The position numbers were made by a program, and so were the translations under genes. From Methylococcaceae bacterium (GTDB lineage: Bacteria > Pseudomonadota > Gammaproteobacteria > Methylococcales > Methylococcaceae): DNA of 38,559 nt. Of the stretch, positions 8,749 through 34,316 are shown in pieces. The notes under the pieces were generated by a model, which did not search any database, was not told where the DNA came from, and saw only the letters and a list, made by a program, of their open reading frames with translations. Where the stretch lies: positions 1 to 38,559 of the forward strand of contig SCQD01000281.1 of the NCBI GenBank assembly GCA_004299145.1, read 5' to 3'. Each line of letters opens with the position of its first letter. Within the stretch, counting starts at the first letter, position 1.

Positions 8749-9618
8749 ATGAGCGATGAGCAATCACACAGTAACAGCGAATCGAAAACCTGGATAGAAC
8801 GGTTTGCCCAATACCTGGTCGGCGAACCCAAGGACCGCAAAGATCTCATGGACGTGCTGCGCGACGCGCAAAAGCGCCACCTGATCGACCCGGAAGCGCT
8901 GACGATGATCGAAGGCGTGTTGCAAATGTCCGAGTTGCGCGTGCGCGACATCATGATTCCCAGGGCGCAAATGGTGGTGGTGCCCCAGGACGCCGAACTG
9001 GAAACGCTGTTTCCCCTGCTCATCGAAACCGCCCACTCGCGTTATCCGGTCATTGGCGAAGACCGCGCCGAGGTGGTGGGCGTGTTGCTGGTCAAAGACC
9101 TGCTGGCGCAAGTGCTGCGCAATCCCGGCATCCTGGCGCGCAGCCTGATGCGCCAGGCCCAGTTTGTCCCGGAGAGCAAGCGCCTCAACGTATTGCTGCG
9201 CGAGTTCCGTTCCACCCGTAACCACATGGCCATCGTCGTGGACGAATACGGCGCGGCGGCGGGTCTGGTCACCATCGAAGACGTGCTGGAGCAGATCGTC
9301 GGCGACATCGTCGACGAATACGATTTCGACAACGAAGACTACATCCGCCGGCGCGGTACCAACGAATACACCGTCAAAGCCTTGATGCCGGTGGAAGATT
9401 TCAACGACTATTTCAGCGCCGATTTACCGGACGACGAATTCGACACCATCGGCGGACTCATCGTCCATCAGGCCGCGCGCGTCCCCAAGCGCGGCGACAA
9501 AGTTTCGCTGGGACGCTTCCGCTTCGAAGTGCTGCGCGCCGACAACCGCCGCTGCCATTTGCTCAGGCTGCGCGTGCAGGAAACGGCGGATGACGGGCAG
9601 GACGATGCCGCCGAATAA
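8749..9618 (+). CDS. corC: CorC/HlyC family CBS-domain protein
   Basis: This soluble protein of 289 aa has two CBS domains (about residues 65-190, with VRDIMIPRAQM and VDEYGAAAGLVTIEDVLEQI) and a C-terminal CorC_HlyC transporter-associated domain from about 200 (DDEFDTIGGLIVHQ). In this locus context it is annotated as magnesium and cobalt efflux protein CorC (YbeX), and genetic links tie it to ybeY and ribosome function. The ribosome site is AAGGATCG upstream of ATG 8749. It ends 4 bp before the chosen lnt start. Confidence 0.93.
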   Translation: MSDEQSHSNSESKTWIERFAQYLVGEPKDRKDLMDVLRDAQKRHLIDPEALTMIEGVLQMSELRVRDIMIPRAQMVVVPQDAELETLFPLLIETAHSRYPVIGEDRAEVVGVLLVKDLLAQVLRNPGILARSLMRQAQFVPESKRLNVLLREFRSTRNHMAIVVDEYGAAAGLVTIEDVLEQIVGDIVDEYDFDNEDYIRRRGTNEYTVKALMPVEDFNDYFSADLPDDEFDTIGGLIVHQAARVPKRGDKVSLGRFRFEVLRADNRRCHLLRLRVQETADDGQDDAAE

Positions 9619-9622
9619 GGCC

Positions 9623-11434
9623 ATGGCCGAAAACAACCCGTCGGCCTCGCCTGTCGATGCAGGGTACGCTGTGCGTTATGCACAGCGTACCCTACGAAAT
9701 GAGCCGGACACTGGCAATGTAGCACCGATTCAGGGAGCGCCAAATCCCAAGCGCTGGTTTACCGACGCGCTCGCCCTGCTGGCAGGCCTGCTGTTCCCCT
9801 TGGCCTTTGCACCTTTCCAGCAAAGCTGGCTGGCGATGCTGTGCCTGGCGGCTTTGTTTTACACTTGGCACGACGCCAGCCCCAAAGCCGCCGCTTGGCG
9901 CGGCTATTTATTCGGCCTGGGGCAGTTCGGCTTCGGCGTATCCTGGGTTTACGTGTCCATGCACGACTTCGGCGGCGCCAGCCCCATGGCGGCCGGCCTG
10001 CTGACCGCCCTGTTCGTCGCGTGTTTTGCCCTGTATCCGGCATTGGCAGGCTATTTGAGCCGGTATCGTTCCCACGCTCGGCGTGGGAATGCATCCGTGG
10101 ACGCTCCGCGTCCCGAAGGGCAGCACCACCAACCCGCGTCATGGACAACATGGTTCCATAACGCAAGGCAATTAATCGGTCTGGGTGATTTACTTAAGGT
10201 AACTCGCGAAAAAATACGGGACGCAGAGCGTCCTGGGCTGCGTTCCCACGCAGAGCGTGGGAACGATAACGGCCTCTGCTTATTGGTCATCTTCCCGATG
10301 GTCTGGATACTGGTTGAATGGCTGCGCGGCTGGCTGTTCACCGGCTTTCCCTGGCTGCAGGCGGGCTATAGCCAGATCAACACCCCGCTGGGCAAGCTGG
10401 CGCCGCTGGCCGGCGTGTACGGCGTCGGCTGGCTGGTCGCCTTTGTCGCCGCCTGTCTGGCGGCTTTTGTATGCCTGCGTGGCCCAGGCCGGCGCTGGTG
10501 GCCCATCGCCGCCGGCGTGTTATGCCTGGGGCTGGGCCAGCTGCCCGCCCCGTCCTGGACTCAGCCCGCCGGTGCGGCGATTCCCGTCGCCTTGATCCAG
10601 GGCAATATCCCCCAAGCATTGAAATTCCAGCCCGACCAGCAATGGCGCACGCTGGAGCGCTACGTCGAGCTGACCCAGGCCAATTGGAACGCCAAAGTCA
10701 TCGTCTGGCCGGAAACGGCGGTGCCGCTTTTTTACCATCAACTGGCCGACACGTTTTTCGCCCGGCTGACCCAGGCTGCCGTGGAGCACGGCAGCGACGT
10801 ACTGGTGGGCGTGCCGGTGGGCTCCCGCGACGGCGGCGCCGATTACTACAACGGTCTGGTGAGCGTAGGAACGAACGTAGCTGCGTATCGCAAGCGCCAT
10901 CTGGTGCCTTTCGGCGAATTTTTACCGTTGAAGCCGCTGCTCGGCTTCGTGCTGAACATTTTGCAGATTCCCTTGTCCGACTTCAGCGCCGGTGATGTCC
11001 GGCAGCCGCTGCTGCAAGCGGGCGGCTGGCCGCTGCTGGCCACGGTGTGCTACGAGGATGCATTCGGCAACGAAGGCCGCGTCGGCCTGCCGGAGGCGGC
11101 CTACCTGGTCAACGTCAGCAACGACGCCTGGTTCGGCGACTCCATCGCTCCGCACCAGCACTTGCAAGTGGCGCAGATGCGCGCCCTGGAAACGGGGCGC
11201 TACATGCTGCGCGCCACCAATACCGGCGTCACGGCCCTGGTCGGCCCGGACGGCAAAGTCGTCAAACAACTGCCGCAATTCGAGGCGGGCGTGTTGACGG
11301 GAAACGTCACGCCCATGGCCGGCGCCACGCCGTACGTGCGTTACGGCGATGCGCCGGTGGTCATGCTGCTGGCTTTACTGTGGCTGGGCGCCGCTTGGAT
11401 GGGACACGATAAGCGGGTTGGTGGGGCGGCATAG
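9623..11434 (+). CDS. lnt: Apolipoprotein N-acyltransferase with two in-frame repeat insertions
   Basis: This inner-membrane enzyme transfers an acyl chain to the N-terminal cysteine of lipoproteins. The C-terminal nitrilase domain has the catalytic triad E364 (WPETAVP), K424 (RKRHLVPFGEFLP) and C476 (VCYEDAFGN). It is about 603 aa from ATG 9623, roughly 90 longer than E. coli Lnt, and the excess is explained by two palindromes. One (9661-9693, encoding GYAVRYAQRTL) lies before the first membrane helix. The other (10064-10268) encodes about 68 residues including RSHARRGNA and RSHAERGND in the loop between ALYPALAGYL and LVIFPMVWILVEWLRGW. The frame is intact throughout, so the gene is probably functional. 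ATGs at 9590 and 9605 are possible starts overlapping corC. Confidence 0.93.
   Translation: MAENNPSASPVDAGYAVRYAQRTLRNEPDTGNVAPIQGAPNPKRWFTDALALLAGLLFPLAFAPFQQSWLAMLCLAALFYTWHDASPKAAAWRGYLFGLGQFGFGVSWVYVSMHDFGGASPMAAGLLTALFVACFALYPALAGYLSRYRSHARRGNASVDAPRPEGQHHQPASWTTWFHNARQLIGLGDLLKVTREKIRDAERPGLRSHAERGNDNGLCLLVIFPMVWILVEWLRGWLFTGFPWLQAGYSQINTPLGKLAPLAGVYGVGWLVAFVAACLAAFVCLRGPGRRWWPIAAGVLCLGLGQLPAPSWTQPAGAAIPVALIQGNIPQALKFQPDQQWRTLERYVELTQANWNAKVIVWPETAVPLFYHQLADTFFARLTQAAVEHGSDVLVGVPVGSRDGGADYYNGLVSVGTNVAAYRKRHLVPFGEFLPLKPLLGFVLNILQIPLSDFSAGDVRQPLLQAGGWPLLATVCYEDAFGNEGRVGLPEAAYLVNVSNDAWFGDSIAPHQHLQVAQMRALETGRYMLRATNTGVTALVGPDGKVVKQLPQFEAGVLTGNVTPMAGATPYVRYGDAPVVMLLALLWLGAAWMGHDKRVGGAA
9661..9693. 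repeat. Palindromic element C inside lnt
   Basis: A perfect 14-bp stem, AGGGTACGCTGTGC (9661-9674) and GCACAGCGTACCCT (9680-9693), with a 5-nt loop, lies within the translated N-terminus of Lnt. A longer-loop copy of the same element is at 14876-14933 in the hydrolase gene. Confidence 0.9.
10064..10268. repeat. REPIN-like element A inserted in frame in lnt
   Basis: The outer ends TATCGTTCCC (10064-10073) and GGGAACGATA (10259-10268) are perfect inverted repeats. Each is followed inward by the GCGTGGGAA hairpin and a GACGCTCCGCGTCCC-type palindrome. The 205-bp unit has an about 100-bp non-repetitive centre and contains no stop in the lnt frame. Confidence 0.9.
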
Positions 11435-11521
11435 CGGCAAGCCGGTTTTAAGCCGGGCGGCGTGCGCCTACATGGGCGGCGCTGGGGCGAAACCAAAGTC
11501 AATGGCGTATTGGCGATGGCT

Positions 11522-11527
11522 TATAAT
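11522..11527 (+). promoter_or_regulatory. Candidate -10 box of yjdM
   Basis: A perfect TATAAT lies 30 bp before the yjdM ATG. No good -35 hexamer is seen at the proper distance. Confidence 0.4.
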
Positions 11528-11556
11528 GTGCGGCTTACCTTCACTAGAGAGACATC

Positions 11557-11898
11557 ATGACCACTATCCCAGCCTGCCCGCAATGCACCCTGGAAAACAC
11601 CTACCCGGATGGCGACAACTATGTTTGCGCCGATTGCGGCCATGAATGGCCGATGCAGGCAACCGCCGCTGCCGACGATGATGGAGCTGCGGTGGTCAAG
11701 GACGCCCACGGCAACGTACTGAACGATGGCGACGCGGTGGTACTGATCAAGGACTTGAAAGTCAAAGGCTCGTCCATCACGCTGAAAATGGGCACCAAGG
11801 TCAAGAGCATCCGTCTGGTCGGCGGGGACCACGAGGTGGATTGCAAAATGGACGCGGGCAATTTCATGCTGAAAGCCTGTTTTTTGAAAAAAGTCTGA
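11557..11898 (+). CDS. yjdM: YjdM/PhnA zinc-ribbon protein
   Basis: This 113-aa protein has an N-terminal zinc ribbon, CPQC (C8, C11) and CADC (C27, C30 region, YVCADCGHEW), and a C-terminal SH3-like KOW-type domain beginning VKDAHGNVLNDGDAVVLIKD. This is the YjdM family, historically called PhnA or alkylphosphonate utilisation protein; it is not the phosphonoacetate hydrolase. Its molecular role is unsettled. The ribosome site is AGAGAG 6-7 nt before ATG. It appears to be a single gene after lnt with its own -10 box. Confidence 0.92.
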   Translation: MTTIPACPQCTLENTYPDGDNYVCADCGHEWPMQATAAADDDGAAVVKDAHGNVLNDGDAVVLIKDLKVKGSSITLKMGTKVKSIRLVGGDHEVDCKMDAGNFMLKACFLKKV

Positions 11899-12024
11899 GT
11901 TCACACTTGTGGACCAACCTGTTTTGCATATTGTGACGAGCAACGCAGACAAGCAAAAAGCTTTACGTTAGGGCCGGGTTTTGGTACAAAGACACCCTGG
12001 CTATTCCAGCCACAGAGGTGATGA

Positions 12025-12435
12025 ATGACTAATTCTTTGAAATTAGTAGCTAAATCGATACTGTCGGTTTCTCTGCTATCGGCCTGCTCGGTTGTTTCAG
12101 CCAAGGGGGCACCCCACCATTCCAGTACCGAGGCGCTGCCGCAAATCGGTCTGGCTACCTACTACAGCGATCACTATCAAGGCCGGCGTACGGCCAGTGG
12201 CGAGCGCTACGACAAAACCAAACTGACGGCGACGCACAGCAAGCTGCCGTTTGGAACCCGGCTACGGGTTACCAACCTCGCCAACCACAAATCCGTGGTG
12301 GTCCGCATCACGGACCGGGCGCGGGCGCGCAACGGCAAACTGGTGGATCTTTCCATGCAGGCTGCGCGGGAGCTGGATTTCGTCAAGGCCGGCAGGGCCA
12401 AGGTGAAATTGGAAGTGCTGAGCTTGGGTAGCTGA
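12025..12435 (+). CDS. rlpA: RlpA-like septal/peptidoglycan protein
   Basis: This 136-aa exported protein has an N-terminal hydrophobic segment ending LLSACSVVSA, which includes a plausible lipobox (LSAC, Cys21) and also a possible signal-peptidase I site. The mature part is a double-psi beta-barrel of the RlpA type: IGLATYYSDHYQGRRTASGE, LPFGTRLRVTNL, VVRITDRARARNGKLVDLS with the conserved aspartate, and AARELDF. RlpA proteins cleave glycan strands lacking stem peptides. The SPOR domain of longer family members is missing. The ribosome site AGAGGTG lies 6 nt before ATG 12025; an upstream ATG at 12021 gives only a 3-codon frame. Confidence 0.88.
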   Translation: MTNSLKLVAKSILSVSLLSACSVVSAKGAPHHSSTEALPQIGLATYYSDHYQGRRTASGERYDKTKLTATHSKLPFGTRLRVTNLANHKSVVVRITDRARARNGKLVDLSMQAARELDFVKAGRAKVKLEVLSLGS

Positions 12436-12457
12436 TTCGTTTACCCAAAACAGCCGT

Positions 12458-12512
12458 TGAACATTCCAAAACCCCTTTCGACCGCTTGGGCGGCGGGGTT
12501 TTGGAATGTTCA
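12458..12512 (+). terminator. Large hairpin after rlpA
   Basis: A perfect 18-bp stem, TGAACATTCCAAAACCCC (12458-12475) with its complement at 12495-12512, encloses a 19-nt loop. There is no U-tract after it, so it may be a factor-dependent terminator, an mRNA-stabilising structure or a repeat element. Confidence 0.55.
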
Positions 12513-12543
12513 CCCCATGAGCGTACAGAGGTTTTTCCATCCC

Positions 12544-12600
12544 CATCGTTCCCATGCTCTGCGTGGGAATGCGTGCTTGGGACGCTCTGCGTCCCGAATG
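12544..12600. repeat. Single family-A palindromic unit
   Basis: It starts CATCGTTCCCATGC, followed by the GCGTGGGAA arm and GGGACGCTCTGCGTCCC. It is one half of the paired element seen at 7977-8242, without an inverted partner nearby. Confidence 0.8.
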
Positions 12601-12784
12601 CATCACTGTCAGAATCCCGATCAAGTTTTTTCTCCTTCGTTATGCGCACGCACGGGTGTGGCGAGCATCAATTCGGCGCCGGGAGCGCTGACGATGTTCA
12701 GTTCGACAACCCAGTGTTGCAATCCAGGCGTTCACCTTATGACCCCCTGTCGATGCACTTCATGCACATCATGTACCCCGCCGA

Positions 12785-13771
12785 TCAGGCTTGTTGTTCG
12801 TTGTGCAACAGGTCCAGCAGTGTTTGCATGTCTTCCGGCAGAGCCGAATGCCATTCGCAATACCCGCCGCTGTCCGGGTGGGTCAAAGCCAGCCGCGTGG
12901 CGTGCAGTGCTTGGCGGCGGAAGTCTTGCAGGCATGTGCTCAGTGCCGGGCTGGCGCCCGCCGGCAAGCGCAGGCGGCTGTAAACCGGGTCGCCGAAGAC
13001 GGGGTAATGCAGGTGTGCCATGTGTACGCGAATCTGGTGGGTGCGGCCGGTTTCCAGCTTGAGCCGCAGCAAGGTATGCTGGGCAAAGCGCTCCGCCACG
13101 CGATAGTGCGTCACGGCGGGTTTGCCGTCGTCGCGCACGGCAAAGCGCTTGCGGTCGGTCGGGTGGCGCCCCAGCGGCGCATCCACCGTGCCGCCCGCCG
13201 TCACGCAGCCTTGCACCAAGGCCAGGTATTCGCGCTCGATGTCGCGCGCCTGGAGCTGGTCCACCAGCAGTTTATGGGCTTGCAGGGTGCGCGCCACCAT
13301 CAACAGGCCGCTGGTGTCCTTGTCCAGGCGGTGGACGATGCCGGCACGAGGCAGCGCCGCCAGTTCCGGCGCGAAGTGCAGCAAGGCGTTGACCAGCGTG
13401 CCGTCCCAGTGTCCCGCCGCCGGATGTACCACCAGCCCCGCCGGTTTGTCGACGATGATCAGGCTGGCGTCCTGGTAAACGATCTGCAAGGGGATGTTTT
13501 CGGCCTGGTCGGTCCCGTGCTCGGCCAGTTCGGCGCGCAAGGCAACCTCCCATCCGCCGATTACCTTATCCTTGGCGCGCAGTGGTTTGCCGTTCACCAG
13601 CACGCAGCCGGACTTGATCCATTCCTGCAAGCGGCTGCGGGAAAACTCGGGAAACATTTCCACCAGGGCCTGGTCCAGGCGCAGGCCGCTGAGGTCGTAG
13701 GGAATGTCGGCGCTATAAAGTGATTGGGTCACAGTGTGTGTCGAGGTGGGTGTGGCTTCAGGTTCTATCAA
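12785..13771 (-). CDS. rluD: 23S rRNA pseudouridine synthase RluD
   Basis: This enzyme makes pseudouridines 1911/1915/1917 in helix 69 of 23S rRNA. Up to 328 aa. An S4 RNA-binding domain comes first (LRLDQALVEMFPEFSRSRLQ to VLVNGKPLRAKDKV), then the RsuA/RluD catalytic domain with the motif GIVHRLDKDTSGLLMVA holding the catalytic aspartate, then ETGRTHQIRVHMAHLHYPVFGD. The start is uncertain: TTG 13771 has GGTGAG just upstream and sits 4 bp after the hydrolase stop, suggesting coupling; GTG 13732 would give a length nearer the family norm but has no ribosome site. Confidence 0.94.
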   Translation of the reverse strand: MIEPEATPTSTHTVTQSLYSADIPYDLSGLRLDQALVEMFPEFSRSRLQEWIKSGCVLVNGKPLRAKDKVIGGWEVALRAELAEHGTDQAENIPLQIVYQDASLIIVDKPAGLVVHPAAGHWDGTLVNALLHFAPELAALPRAGIVHRLDKDTSGLLMVARTLQAHKLLVDQLQARDIEREYLALVQGCVTAGGTVDAPLGRHPTDRKRFAVRDDGKPAVTHYRVAERFAQHTLLRLKLETGRTHQIRVHMAHLHYPVFGDPVYSRLRLPAGASPALSTCLQDFRRQALHATRLALTHPDSGGYCEWHSALPEDMQTLLDLLHNEQQA

Positions 13772-13775
13772 ACAC

Positions 13776-14975
13776 TCACCGGCAGGGTGTTTCGATTACC
13801 GCCGGCTTGTAGGGTTTGCCATCGGGCCAGCCCCCCAGAAAAGTCGCCTCGGCATTGTCGCCGAATACTTCGTCGGGATAGCGATTAAACGCCAGCCAAT
13901 CAAGCAAGCCGCCGACGATTTTCCAATAACCGGCGAAATCCAGCGTATTCAGCGAAGCGGAGGCTTCAAACCCTGCTCTGGCCGGAATCACGCCGGGAAC
14001 CGCGCCGTGCGAGTCGGGAAAATCGTAGCGCGAATCCGGTGCGCCGGGCGAGCCATGCCCTGCTTTTACCTGCGCCTTGCCGGACTGGTCGGAAGGGAAA
14101 ATAAACAGCCGGCGCCGGTCTTTTTGTACGTGGCACAGCTTGGCCGCCCAAGCGCGGGCGGTGGGCAAGCCTATGGCTGTGTCGGCTTGCCCGCCCACCA
14201 GGACCACCGGCAGATCGGCGGGAATTTTCGCGAGATCACCGATAATGCTGGCGCTTTCGGGGCCGTGCATGACGTGGTGGGCGTTGCCCGGCGCCATCAA
14301 AGCCAGCGCGCGCGGGCCCGGCAAGCCGTATTTGTCCGGCGCCGATGCCAAATTCAGTGAAATTGCCGCGCCCATGGAATAACCGTAATACATGACTTTT
14401 TCCAAGTCCATCAGCTCGGGATAAAGGTGCGCGACTTCAGCCAATGCCTGGCGATCAGCGGTCGCGGCCAGCTCGGTAATGGCCGAGGGCATGGTGTGGG
14501 GTGGCTCCTGGTAGACGGGGTAGATGACCACCGCCCCGCGCCGTACCAGATGGTCGATCAACGCGCCGAAATTCTTGGGGCTCACGCCCAGCCAGCCGTG
14601 GTGAAACAGCACCACCGGCGCTTTTTTGGGGGGAGGATCGTCGGGAATGAATGCATAAGCCCGCTGCGCGCCTTCCCCCACGGTCAAGACCTTGACCCGT
14701 GCGTGTTGGTGTTGGGCTGAATAGGCAGGCGCACTGTATTTTTCCGCCGGCGGGGTTGAGCCTGCATCCGCGACGCTCAGCCCCGCGGCAAACGCCAAAA
14801 TAAAGAAAGCGATTTTGCGCTGAATAGGCGCGGCAAACGTTACGGACGGGGTGGATATTCCGTCCAGCCAGCCTTGTAGGGTACGCTGTGCGTACCGCTC
14901 GACGCCATTGAAGGTGCGCACAGCGTACCCTACATTGATGGGCGCAAGCGGAAAGTTATATGTCTTAGCCGCCAC
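13776..14975 (-). CDS. Exported alpha/beta hydrolase (dienelactone hydrolase-like)
   Basis: This serine hydrolase has the nucleophile motif GYSMG in VMYYGYSMGAAISLNLAS, an oxyanion region VVLFHHGWLGVSPKNF and a late LPVVLVGGQADTAIG likely to hold the acid residue. A signal-like hydrophobic stretch (KIAFFILAFAAGLSVADA) sits about 50 residues from the start. The leading part is unusual: it contains palindromic element C, read as GYAVRTFNGVERYAQRTL. The first codon is GTG 14975, overlapping the ubiJ stop by 11 bp; the only in-frame start nearer the signal is a GTG within the repeat. It sits where ubiB usually follows ubiJ. The substrate is unknown. Confidence 0.8.
   Translation of the reverse strand: MAAKTYNFPLAPINVGYAVRTFNGVERYAQRTLQGWLDGISTPSVTFAAPIQRKIAFFILAFAAGLSVADAGSTPPAEKYSAPAYSAQHQHARVKVLTVGEGAQRAYAFIPDDPPPKKAPVVLFHHGWLGVSPKNFGALIDHLVRRGAVVIYPVYQEPPHTMPSAITELAATADRQALAEVAHLYPELMDLEKVMYYGYSMGAAISLNLASAPDKYGLPGPRALALMAPGNAHHVMHGPESASIIGDLAKIPADLPVVLVGGQADTAIGLPTARAWAAKLCHVQKDRRRLFIFPSDQSGKAQVKAGHGSPGAPDSRYDFPDSHGAVPGVIPARAGFEASASLNTLDFAGYWKIVGGLLDWLAFNRYPDEVFGDNAEATFLGGWPDGKPYKPAVIETPCR
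14876..14933. repeat. Palindromic element C inside the hydrolase gene
   Basis: The arms at 14876-14896 and 14913-14933 (21 nt each, one mismatch) contain GTAGGGTACGCTGTGCG and its complement around a 16-nt loop. It is related to the copy in lnt at 9661-9693 and is translated in the same frame. Confidence 0.9.
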
Positions 14976-26418: not shown

Positions 26419-27408
26419 ATGTGCAAAATAAACCCTCGCGTCGATTTCGCCTTTAAAAAGCTGTTTGGCAGCGAAGGCAATAAGGACCTGTTGATTTCGC
26501 TGATCAACTCGATCGTATCCGAGCAGGATCAAGTCGCCGAGGTCGAATTAAAAAACCCCTACAATCTGGCCGATTATTGTGCCGGAAAAATCTCCATACT
26601 CGACATCAAAGCGCGTAGTAACGAGGGTGTTTGGTTTAATATCGAAATGCAGATCAGCGAAGACTATAACTTCGATAAGCGTGCGATTTACTACTGGGCA
26701 AAACTGGTCACGGACCAACTCAGCGAAGGCATGATGTTCAAGGAGTTAAAAAAAACGATCAGCATCAACATCATGGATTTCAACTTTATCCCTGAAACGG
26801 AGGATGTGCATAGTTGCTACAAAATCATTAACGTCGCTTCCGGCAAGGACGACAAATTGCACGATATTTTTGAACTGCACTATATCGAACTGCAAAAATT
26901 CAAAAAACAGTTCCATCAAATCTCTACCGCGCTGGATCGCTGGAGCACTTTTTTAACCCGGGCCGGTGAGTTGACTCTGGCGCACATACCCGAAACATTG
27001 GCCGGCGATAAAGCCATTGTCAAGGCCATTGAAGCGGTGGATTGCATGTTCAACGAGGATGAACGCCAAGTCTACGAAGTACGCATGCAGGCTTTTGCCG
27101 ACATTAAGAGCAAAATTGCCTCGGCGGAAGAGATAGGCATGAAAAGAGGCATGGAGAAAGGCATGGAGAAAGGTATGGAGAAAGGTATGGAGAAAGGTAT
27201 GGAAAAGGGTATCGAGCAAGGCTTGAAGAAAGGCATTGAGAAAGGGCTGCAAGAAGGCCGTCAAGAAGGCCTGCAAGCGGGCTTGCTGGAAGGCGAACAC
27301 CGTAAAGCGCTGGAGATTGCGCACAATCTGCTGGATATTCTGGATAATGCCGCCATCGCGGCTAAAACCGGCCTGGACGAAGCCGAGGTTGAACTGTTGC
27401 GTCGTTAA
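26419..27408 (+). CDS. Rpn-family recombination-promoting nuclease
   Basis: This PD-(D/E)XK nuclease family protein (DUF4351/Rpn type, often called putative transposase) has 329 aa. The start reads INPRVDFAFKKLFGSEGNKDLL, typical of the family, and the catalytic core is in SILDIKARSNEGVWFNIEMQ with the D...E-x-Q pattern. The C-terminal quarter is a run of (G-M-E-K) units encoded by a 12-bp microsatellite (27148-27219), then Q/E/G-rich residues, so its length is prone to slippage. Rpn proteins promote RecA-independent recombination. It starts 11 bp after bamC and is more AT-rich than its neighbours, suggesting horizontal gain. Confidence 0.9.
   Translation: MCKINPRVDFAFKKLFGSEGNKDLLISLINSIVSEQDQVAEVELKNPYNLADYCAGKISILDIKARSNEGVWFNIEMQISEDYNFDKRAIYYWAKLVTDQLSEGMMFKELKKTISINIMDFNFIPETEDVHSCYKIINVASGKDDKLHDIFELHYIELQKFKKQFHQISTALDRWSTFLTRAGELTLAHIPETLAGDKAIVKAIEAVDCMFNEDERQVYEVRMQAFADIKSKIASAEEIGMKRGMEKGMEKGMEKGMEKGMEKGIEQGLKKGIEKGLQEGRQEGLQAGLLEGEHRKALEIAHNLLDILDNAAIAAKTGLDEAEVELLRR
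27148..27219. repeat. 12-bp in-frame microsatellite in the Rpn gene
   Basis: Five successive 12-bp units GG(C/T)ATGGAGAAA (the fifth ending GGAAAAG) plus a degenerate sixth encode GMEK repeats. Because the unit is four codons, copy-number changes keep the frame while changing linker length. Confidence 0.9.
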
Positions 27409-34166: not shown

Positions 34167-34192
34167 AATACAGTGCCATCAACAACGCCCTC

Positions 34193-34309
34193 TCAAGCAG
34201 CCTTAGTAATTCCGCGAGGACGCGGCGGCTGTCAAGCAGCCTTAGTAATTCCGCGAGGACGCGGCGGCTGTCAAGCAGCCTTAGTGATTCCGCGAGGACG
34301 CGGCGGTTG
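34193..34309. repeat. Three 39-bp tandem copies of family B
   Basis: Exact units of 39 bp start at 34193, 34232 and 34271, the third with two substitutions. Each contains TTCCGCGAGGACGCGGCGG. Thirty-nine bases are 13 codons, so in the frame of the downstream kinase gene they would read AALVIPRGRGGCQ three times. There is no spacer variation, so this is not a CRISPR. Confidence 0.92.
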
Positions 34310-34316
34310 TCTTGCC

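Follow-up and report, generated by a model that had tools for sequence, protein, structure and literature searches.

A palindrome of a Methylococcaceae bacterium, here called element C, is read in one and the same frame in 19 of the 20 copies that must be translated if their host genes are expressed (the must-translate copies). The two starting sites lie in a stretch of 38,559 nt, contig SCQD01000281.1 of assembly GCA_004299145.1 (hereafter the window), in two unrelated genes, lnt and the gene of an alpha/beta hydrolase. What sort of element is this, and how does it come to stand inside genes? We give a probability of roughly three in four to the reading that element C is a mobile, GTAG-tagged dimer of a repetitive extragenic palindrome (REP), akin to a miniature inverted-repeat transposable element (MITE), that it forms the core of two composites, class 1 and class 2, and that its persistence inside genes is mostly limited to one benign frame and to forgiving sites.

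An earlier note on this DNA had placed the palindrome in both genes, in the same frame and ahead of the first hydrophobic segment. The arms and the open reading frames (ORFs) confirm the places and the frames, and the position ahead of the first hydrophobic segment holds for lnt and for the hydrolase. The features concerned are these.

9623 to 11434, plus strand: lnt coding sequence, from the ORF and the starts of relatives; Pfam LNT_N and CN_hydrolase.
9616 to 9750, plus strand: class-1 composite (alpha arm, core, beta arm) that is the 5' end of lnt, from the arm scores; aligned with 24 other copies.
9659 to 9695, plus strand: core palindrome C in lnt, 37 nt, and so 21 nt (7 codons) shorter than the usual 58.
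13776 to 14975, minus strand: alpha/beta hydrolase coding sequence, starting at GTG 14975 or at GTG 14921 inside the core.
14876 to 14933, minus strand: core palindrome C in the hydrolase gene, 58 nt; the sole upstream start codon stands before it and the signal peptide after it.

In lnt the core arms, 9661-9674 and 9680-9693, are perfect and enclose a loop of 5 nt; the plus-strand ORF across the core reads ...SPVDAGYAVRYAQRTLRNEP.... The hydrolase core lies within a 29-nt inverted repeat, 86% complementary (arms 14868-14896 and 14913-14941), and the minus-strand ORF through it reads ...INVGYAVRTFNGVERYAQRTLQG.... Hairpin folding gave -28.2 kcal/mol (z -6.9) for the lnt copy and -38.7 kcal/mol (z -6.4) for the hydrolase copy. 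The hydrolase itself is recognised by Pfam DLH above the cut-off, with Abhydrolase_1 and Abhydrolase_3 slightly under theirs. Four half-sites of TAGGGTACGCTGTGCGT occur in the window at up to 3 mismatches, against 0.07 expected, a number reached in 0 of 100 shuffles; the window has no Rfam match at the gathering threshold. Few frames are open through the element, as the earlier note had said: three phases in the lnt copy and two in that of the hydrolase.

How common is element C, and where does it lie? In the whole genome (4,636,067 bases in 353 contigs) we counted 288 half-sites, 148 forward and 140 reverse, as against 4 for the pattern read backwards. Around the listed copies 93 merged stretches were analysed, the window included; they amount to 627,502 bases and cover 219 of the 288 half-sites. 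Copies were called at up to 4 mismatches, which gave 156 in the stretches: 105 pairs and 51 single half-sites, the latter (some present by chance) excluded from the frame count. For gene calls we used a hexamer-based finder of our own, with these stretches as its training set (650 genes, 87% coding). Each half consists, in most copies listed, of a GTAG tag and then a small hairpin, GGTACGC-TGT-GCGTACC, and the usual unit of 58 nt is made of two opposed halves with a 16-nt loop between them. By placement, the 156 copies divide into 97 intergenic, 20 across a gene end and 39 within a gene; for the pairs the corresponding numbers are 69, 15 and 21, the last against 91 of 105 expected from the 87% coding fraction. 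The TAG of the tag is the stop codon of 14 predicted genes. By its tag, short palindrome, copy number, inverted dimers, mostly intergenic placement and TAG stops, element C is a GTAG-tagged REP dimer. The earlier note had named an almost purely intergenic distribution as contrary to its idea; most copies are indeed intergenic, yet 20 of the 105 pairs must be translated if their genes are expressed.

Those 20 comprise 13 mid-gene copies and 7 at the 5' ends of genes without a suitable start codon past the element. Open traversals number 39 in all, and the other 19 were set aside by judgement (a later start codon, or non-coding upstream sequence), the division into 20 and 19 being made partly by eye. 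In the must-translate set the frame is phase 0 (VGYAVR) in 19 copies and phase 2 in one (C211:8783), whereas the 19 other traversals are in phase 0 in 7 cases, phase 2 in 11 and phase 1 in one (p 1.4e-4 for phase 0). Where a must-translate copy has more than one open frame, phase 0 is the one used in 11 of 12 (p 0.002). The loop, in our reading, is oriented the same way in 13 of the 14 orientable copies (p 0.002), a count that leaves aside the 6 of the 20 whose loops cannot be oriented. The earlier note had named random frames among genic copies as contrary to its idea; the frames are not random. The host genes are as follows.

Mid-gene: LpxB, where the element separates two LpxB stretches.
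Mid-gene, two copies: a Haem_oxygenas_2 protein.
Mid-gene: an ABC protein with two ATPase matches, between the Pfam matches.
Mid-gene: a BTAD-AAA protein (C31), inside the AAA_16 match.
Mid-gene: a large protein with YDG/Glug domains, and a large protein with TPS domains.
Mid-gene: a CheA-like protein, between Pfam matches.
Mid-gene: CheB, between Pfam matches.
Mid-gene: a multi-domain histidine kinase, shortly ahead of the Hpt domain.
Mid-gene: a second multi-domain histidine kinase, inside a receiver domain as judged from the flanks.
Mid-gene: a molybdopterin/BFD protein, between Pfam matches.
Mid-gene: an FtsX-type permease.
5' end, 7 copies: Lnt, the hydrolase, GspG, an SNase/DUF4124 protein, FlgT, an HlyD-type adaptor and an SLT_2 transglycosylase.

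By inspection, all 7 of the 5' copies lead into a signal peptide, a prepilin motif or a first membrane helix. A hydropathy cut-off finds a hydrophobic stretch after the element in 6 of the 7 (the adaptor is missed); of the 13 mid-gene copies it picks out one. Among the 5' copies, 6 of the 7 have their next standard start codon at least 25 codons past the element; in the transglycosylase it is 6 codons past, within the hydrophobic stretch. CcmH (C97:43062) and a thioredoxin-like protein with no Pfam match (C200:3220, in another frame) resemble these but were rejected as must-translate, each having a possible start codon at most 2 codons from the element. An FtsQ-like gene (C79), a 101-residue ORF on C136 (L064), C188 and C24 were likewise set aside, either for a normal start codon past the element or for a spurious-looking ORF. 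The distance to the next start codon in C24 and C116, both dropped, is nevertheless 27 and 44 codons. Some names used for genes of these stretches carry no Pfam call and are our assumption: corC-like, NasA-like, MltB-type, thioredoxin- or TlpA-like, Rpn-like, and the histidine kinase at 34 kb.

How might one frame come to prevail? On the reading we prefer, insertions would mostly be retained between genes, and selection would act as a filter on the rest: a genic insertion would survive only if the ribosome reads through it and the extra peptide is nearly harmless. The TAG within the GTAG tag would normally shut one of the three frames, and a stop in the loop or an arm would often shut a second. 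We propose that, because the other frames are closed in this way, nearly all survivors stand in one rather hydrophilic frame, (V)GYAVRT..(D/E)G..ERYAQRTL. Two kinds of site would be forgiving: the linkers that join domains, and the stretch before a signal peptide, a prepilin motif or a first membrane helix, since there the leader peptide would be cut off or remain on the cytoplasmic side. For lnt, a full class-1 element would make the 5' end of the gene and supply its start codon.

The two composites were recognised from the flanks of the core, which were described by eye first and then clustered blind to context, with 103 of the 105 pairs (the other two lie too close to a stretch end). Class 1 is about 165 nt long, and its alpha and beta arms have alike outer ends (TAAGGATATGGCTGAAAACAACTTCCC and similar). 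Both arms were called in 25 copies, a few of them weak, and the consensus of these 25 has terminal inverted repeats in the form of imperfect ends of about 28 nt. In the alignment of the 25, judged by eye, the outer ends are TA in many copies but not in all, which would fit TA target duplication; no clean empty site was found for a full-length copy. The class-1 arm cluster holds 53 elements: one mid-gene (LpxB), 4 must-translate gene starts and 48 others. The class-2 arm cluster holds 11, of which 9 are mid-gene and 2 are not (C224, before an AMP-binding domain, and C306). Mid-gene placement thus differs sharply, 9 of 11 in class 2 versus 1 of 53 in class 1 (p 2e-8). A pattern for the class-2 3' arm matched one place only at up to 3 mismatches, and we therefore take this arm to be too diverged for pattern search.

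Read from alpha to beta in the GYAVR phase, the class-1 consensus has an ATG 36 nt ahead of the core and remains open almost to its other end: MAENNFPTAPIDVGYAVR...RYAQRTLQGGLDPGNIASIQGSYFRPNP. An ATG stands at exactly this distance in 9 of the 25 class-1 copies, lnt included, and in 13 of the 25 the frame stays open for at least 60 nt beyond the core. Donation of a Shine-Dalgarno sequence is not claimed, since the AAGGA of the alpha arm is only 1-2 nt from the ATG. It is a rather doubtful proposal that class 2, as a mobile palindrome, has become adapted to protein interiors, where it would form a benign hairpin-like linker (our own composed consensus is TPSGANCVGYAVRTFDGSERYAQRTLHFSPRAELDATAL), and class 1 a mobile gene start, with its own ATG and an in-frame leader, able to take over the starts of exported and membrane proteins.

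Are the 5' copies translated at all? They might be untranslated leaders, with translation beginning at a rare start codon downstream and the open frame incidental. The mostly intergenic placement of class-1 copies agrees with this, as does the hydrolase gene, where an ATT directly precedes a normal-looking signal peptide, and phase 0 is not favoured in the 19 other traversals (7 of 19). We nevertheless consider it unlikely: it leaves the mid-gene copies unexplained, and lnt and gspG speak against it.

The search for Lnt relatives gave 27 with a true Lnt, and 3 further ones with distant matches only. In all 27 the first matched query residue falls within 30-49, and the match is interrupted at 146-159 / 211-225. 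Because these matches start late and break, we conclude that lnt carries two inserts, element C at its start and a pair of another element, A, inside; the element C insert is absent from Lnt in 27 of 27. The best named relatives are Methylococcales, at 43-48% identity, in a listing that may omit very near records. Between the element and the first transmembrane segment (TM1) of lnt there is no ATG, GTG or TTG. In the 10 of the 27 relatives recognised by the motif GFGVSW (17 were not) start codons stand 58-76 codons before it, and the Lnt of a same-genus genome starts at MPFPTTAQRR, directly before TM1. The start codons of our lnt, by comparison, are 86, 102, 108 and 113 codons before GFGVSW, and the next is at 43, late in TM1. 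The reading of lnt is MAENNPSASPVDAGYAVRYAQRTLRNEPDTGNVAPIQGAPNPKRW, and ATG 9623 falls within the alpha arm, where the element has an ATG of its own; given this reading, we take the two to be the same. The composite's arms score 23 (alpha) and 19 (beta), both above every shuffled flank, and the composite begins with the three bases TAA, which end the upstream gene as its stop codon; we take that gene to be corC-like. It is possible that lnt starts further up (ATG 9590 or 9605) or at a GTG in the core; each of these would translate at least part of the element.

In GspG the beta arm reads GNVRPIQGSSFRPNLK. Among 23 relatives examined, 15 were recognised by the pattern and 8 were not; in each of the 15 an ATG or GTG precedes the cleavage glycine by 11-17 codons. 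The nearest starts in our gspG are a GTG at -42, inside the core, and an ATG at -64, and the sequence from the element to the first hydrophobic stretch contains no standard start codon. For the hydrolase there is no orthologue in 30 relatives, one short match (G012) spanning residues 11-58 only, and the ATT after the element is conceivable as a non-standard start. The earlier note had reckoned with true starts downstream of the palindromes; lnt and gspG count against this, and the hydrolase leaves room for it.

The second insert of lnt and the other repeats of the window are set out here.

10052 to 10273, plus strand: second, unrelated palindromic insert (element A pair, SHARRGN...SHAERGN, about 62 codons), in frame in the body of lnt, from its repeat arms, the relatives and the same-genus Lnt.

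The element A pair is missing in 27 of 27 true-Lnt relatives, which align on both its sides. Element A has 57 matches (at most 5 mismatches) in the 627 kb and its reversed control none; it seems to accompany element C ahead of signal peptides at C188:553-760 and at C136:5689-5900. At 34188-34311 of the window, three tandem copies of a further element, B (QAALVIPRGRGGC), are open in frame before what is presumably a histidine kinase; because an ATG (MPLNGPSSAARLEDAF) comes after them they need not be translated, in contrast to the situation in lnt. At 27130-27273 a 12-nt tandem repeat (GAGAAAGGTATG, giving MEKG repeats) lies in the C-terminal part of an ORF that we presume to be Rpn-like.

What do orthologues say of the mid-gene copies? 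LpxB gave a match in 27 relatives, 20 of which were aligned. A block of 42 residues is missing in all 20, one of which has 5 residues there. Our LpxB keeps 104 of the 107 columns that are invariant among the 20 orthologues, and shares 79% identity with the LpxB of the same-genus genome. Its AlphaFold model has a mean predicted local distance difference test (pLDDT) score of 82.6, with residues 182-220 as the sole long stretch below 50; within it two short strands are modelled at low confidence, at 205-207 and 210-212. The best match of the model in the Protein Data Bank is LpxB 5w8s (E 6e-21), with a poor overall superposition (template modelling score 0.59, root mean square deviation 20.4). 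In CheB the match is split around residues 150-198 in most relatives listed, and 45 codons lie between the matched ends here against 8 in G006; since this linker is naturally variable, the comparison supports an insertion and falls short of proving it. In three conserved genes, LpxB, Lnt and GspG, the element is inserted in frame, and the orthologues tested are without the insert.

Might class 2, and perhaps class 1, have been domesticated, so that the peptide, or the ATG that the element brings, has a use, for example as a mobile start with leader or as a hairpin linker, and is positively selected? The concentration of class 2 in mid-gene, the fixed ATG of 9 of the 25 class-1 copies and the two strands of the low-confidence LpxB model point that way. 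So does the turn of the loop. We compared 13 genic copies (12 of the 20, and C224) with 48 intergenic 58-nt pairs; the turn residue is S, G or A in 10 of 13 genic versus 8 of 48 intergenic copies (p 9e-5). The same comparison, with each set taken against its own consensus, also bears on our preferred reading, which it favours by relatively more synonymous change and a more hydrophilic turn in the genic copies: codon differences in the loop are 18 non-synonymous and 7 synonymous in these and 72 and 6 in the intergenic ones (p 0.014). Against domestication, the hosts and the sites are unrelated, the orthologues examined manage without the insert, and survivorship accounts for the same data. We regard domestication as quite improbable. 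That the agreement in frame is chance together with ORF artefacts is scarcely credible: only one to three frames are open per copy, and lnt and the hydrolase by themselves prove nothing, but the excess of phase 0 in the must-translate set as a whole and among its 12 informative members, and the comparison with orthologues, stand against it.

Several points weigh against the survival of a mobile element in one benign frame as we have proposed it. Eight of the 20 must-translate copies are open in phase 0 only and are therefore uninformative on the choice of frame. One copy, C211:8783, uses another frame, and so would C200:3220, which was dropped, if it is translated. C24, C97:43062 and C200:3220 were dropped by partly visual criteria; C184 was kept among the 20 though a start codon stands 6 codons past the element, within the hydrophobic stretch. 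One insert (C31) splits a domain match, that of AAA_16. Subfamily descent may lie behind the synonymous and turn-residue signals, and since the genic copies are largely class 2 it could give the same picture of the loop. Finally, no transposase is tied to element C: our genome has three Y1_Tnp genes, and none of their loci, taken to at most 1.5 kb on each side, contains it.

What, then, might have moved element C? With 353 contigs, and two of the Y1_Tnp genes on contigs shorter than 4 kb, a cognate REP-associated tyrosine transposase (RAYT) gene could be missed. Two element C copies lie 2-4 kb from the Y1_Tnp gene on C230. A RAYT-like gene on C157 (L117/L033) was rejected as mobiliser, being flanked by its own inverted REP, which is unrelated to element C; that REP has 3 matches in the 627 kb, two of them adjoining the gene, whose C-terminal end looks altered by eye. 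A parent insertion sequence with class-1 ends was not found in the 627 kb, where inverted pairs of the end motif occur at 130, 131 and 203 bp and none farther apart up to 3,500 bp. In most of 40 relatives, half-sites are about as numerous as matches of the reversed control. The same-genus genome contains 21, among them many with a variant stem; more than this, 62, 81 and 83, occur in G027, G031 and G037, three genomes from other families within the order. The distribution of element C among relatives is patchy.

How does element C compare with known systems? The GTAG REPs of PMC3733652 have an end tag, a short stem-loop and inverted dimers, are mostly intergenic and supply TAG stops; some lie inside ORFs as inserts of 20-30 residues, linkers and loops being suggested as tolerant sites. 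Element C is like them in tag, stem-loop, dimers, placement, TAG stops and ORF copies. It differs in that one subfamily lies mostly in gene interiors, that the 5' copies lack another standard start codon, that the arms are larger and bear an ATG, and that no flanking RAYT gene was found. Its frame is the same in 19 of 20 copies, which may be a further difference. GTAG REPs are also listed with RAYTs in PMC2817692. REPINs (PMC3116915, PMC2817692), like element C, consist of two inverted REPs with a short spacer in high copy number; in the REPIN/RAYT system, however, the cognate gene is flanked by the same REP, whereas element C is absent from the three Y1_Tnp loci.

Palindromic elements of Rickettsia, as described in PMC3733652, lie in frame in unrelated and apparently working genes, and N-terminally decorated proteins are expressed in vivo. 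The parallel, drawn in the earlier note, is fair as a way of working: insertion in frame is shared, while element C belongs to another organism and most of its copies are intergenic, the two being compared by description only. The enterobacterial RU elements (PMC2759123) are MITE-like, with frames fused to 24 annotated loci and residues kept in all but one example; one fusion lies within a predicted signal peptide. Their fusions are said to use shifted frames too (RU-1f, RU-3f), and in large conserved proteins to be C-terminal and never within conserved domains. Element C, unlike these, occupies linkers and N-termini, and twice it falls inside a domain match. In Coxiella, QMITEs (PMC5896051) encode the ends of proteins, a QMITE2 copy extending a C-terminus in frame. 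RU elements, QMITEs and element C are alike in being MITE-like, with frames of the element joined to genes.

The earlier note had suggested an undescribed family of protein-coding repeats. Because GTAG REPs inside ORFs are already published (PMC3733652), as are kept MITE-like frames (PMC2759123), we regard the kind of element as known; what stands of the suggestion is that neither the element C family nor its gene-dwelling subfamily has a published description among the literature matches listed, those of searches aimed at Methylococcales included.

The presumed translation of these copies amounts to a natural experiment that can be counted: it records the places in a folded protein, or at an export signal, that can take 20-45 extra residues, outside the reduced genomes of Rickettsia. 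PMC3733652 cautions that N-terminal REPs may be untranslated; the copies of lnt and gspG speak, for two genes, against the view that such REPs are annotation errors. One family of elements seems to have provided a start codon, leaders, linkers and stop codons alike, by which mobile DNA would become protein sequence.

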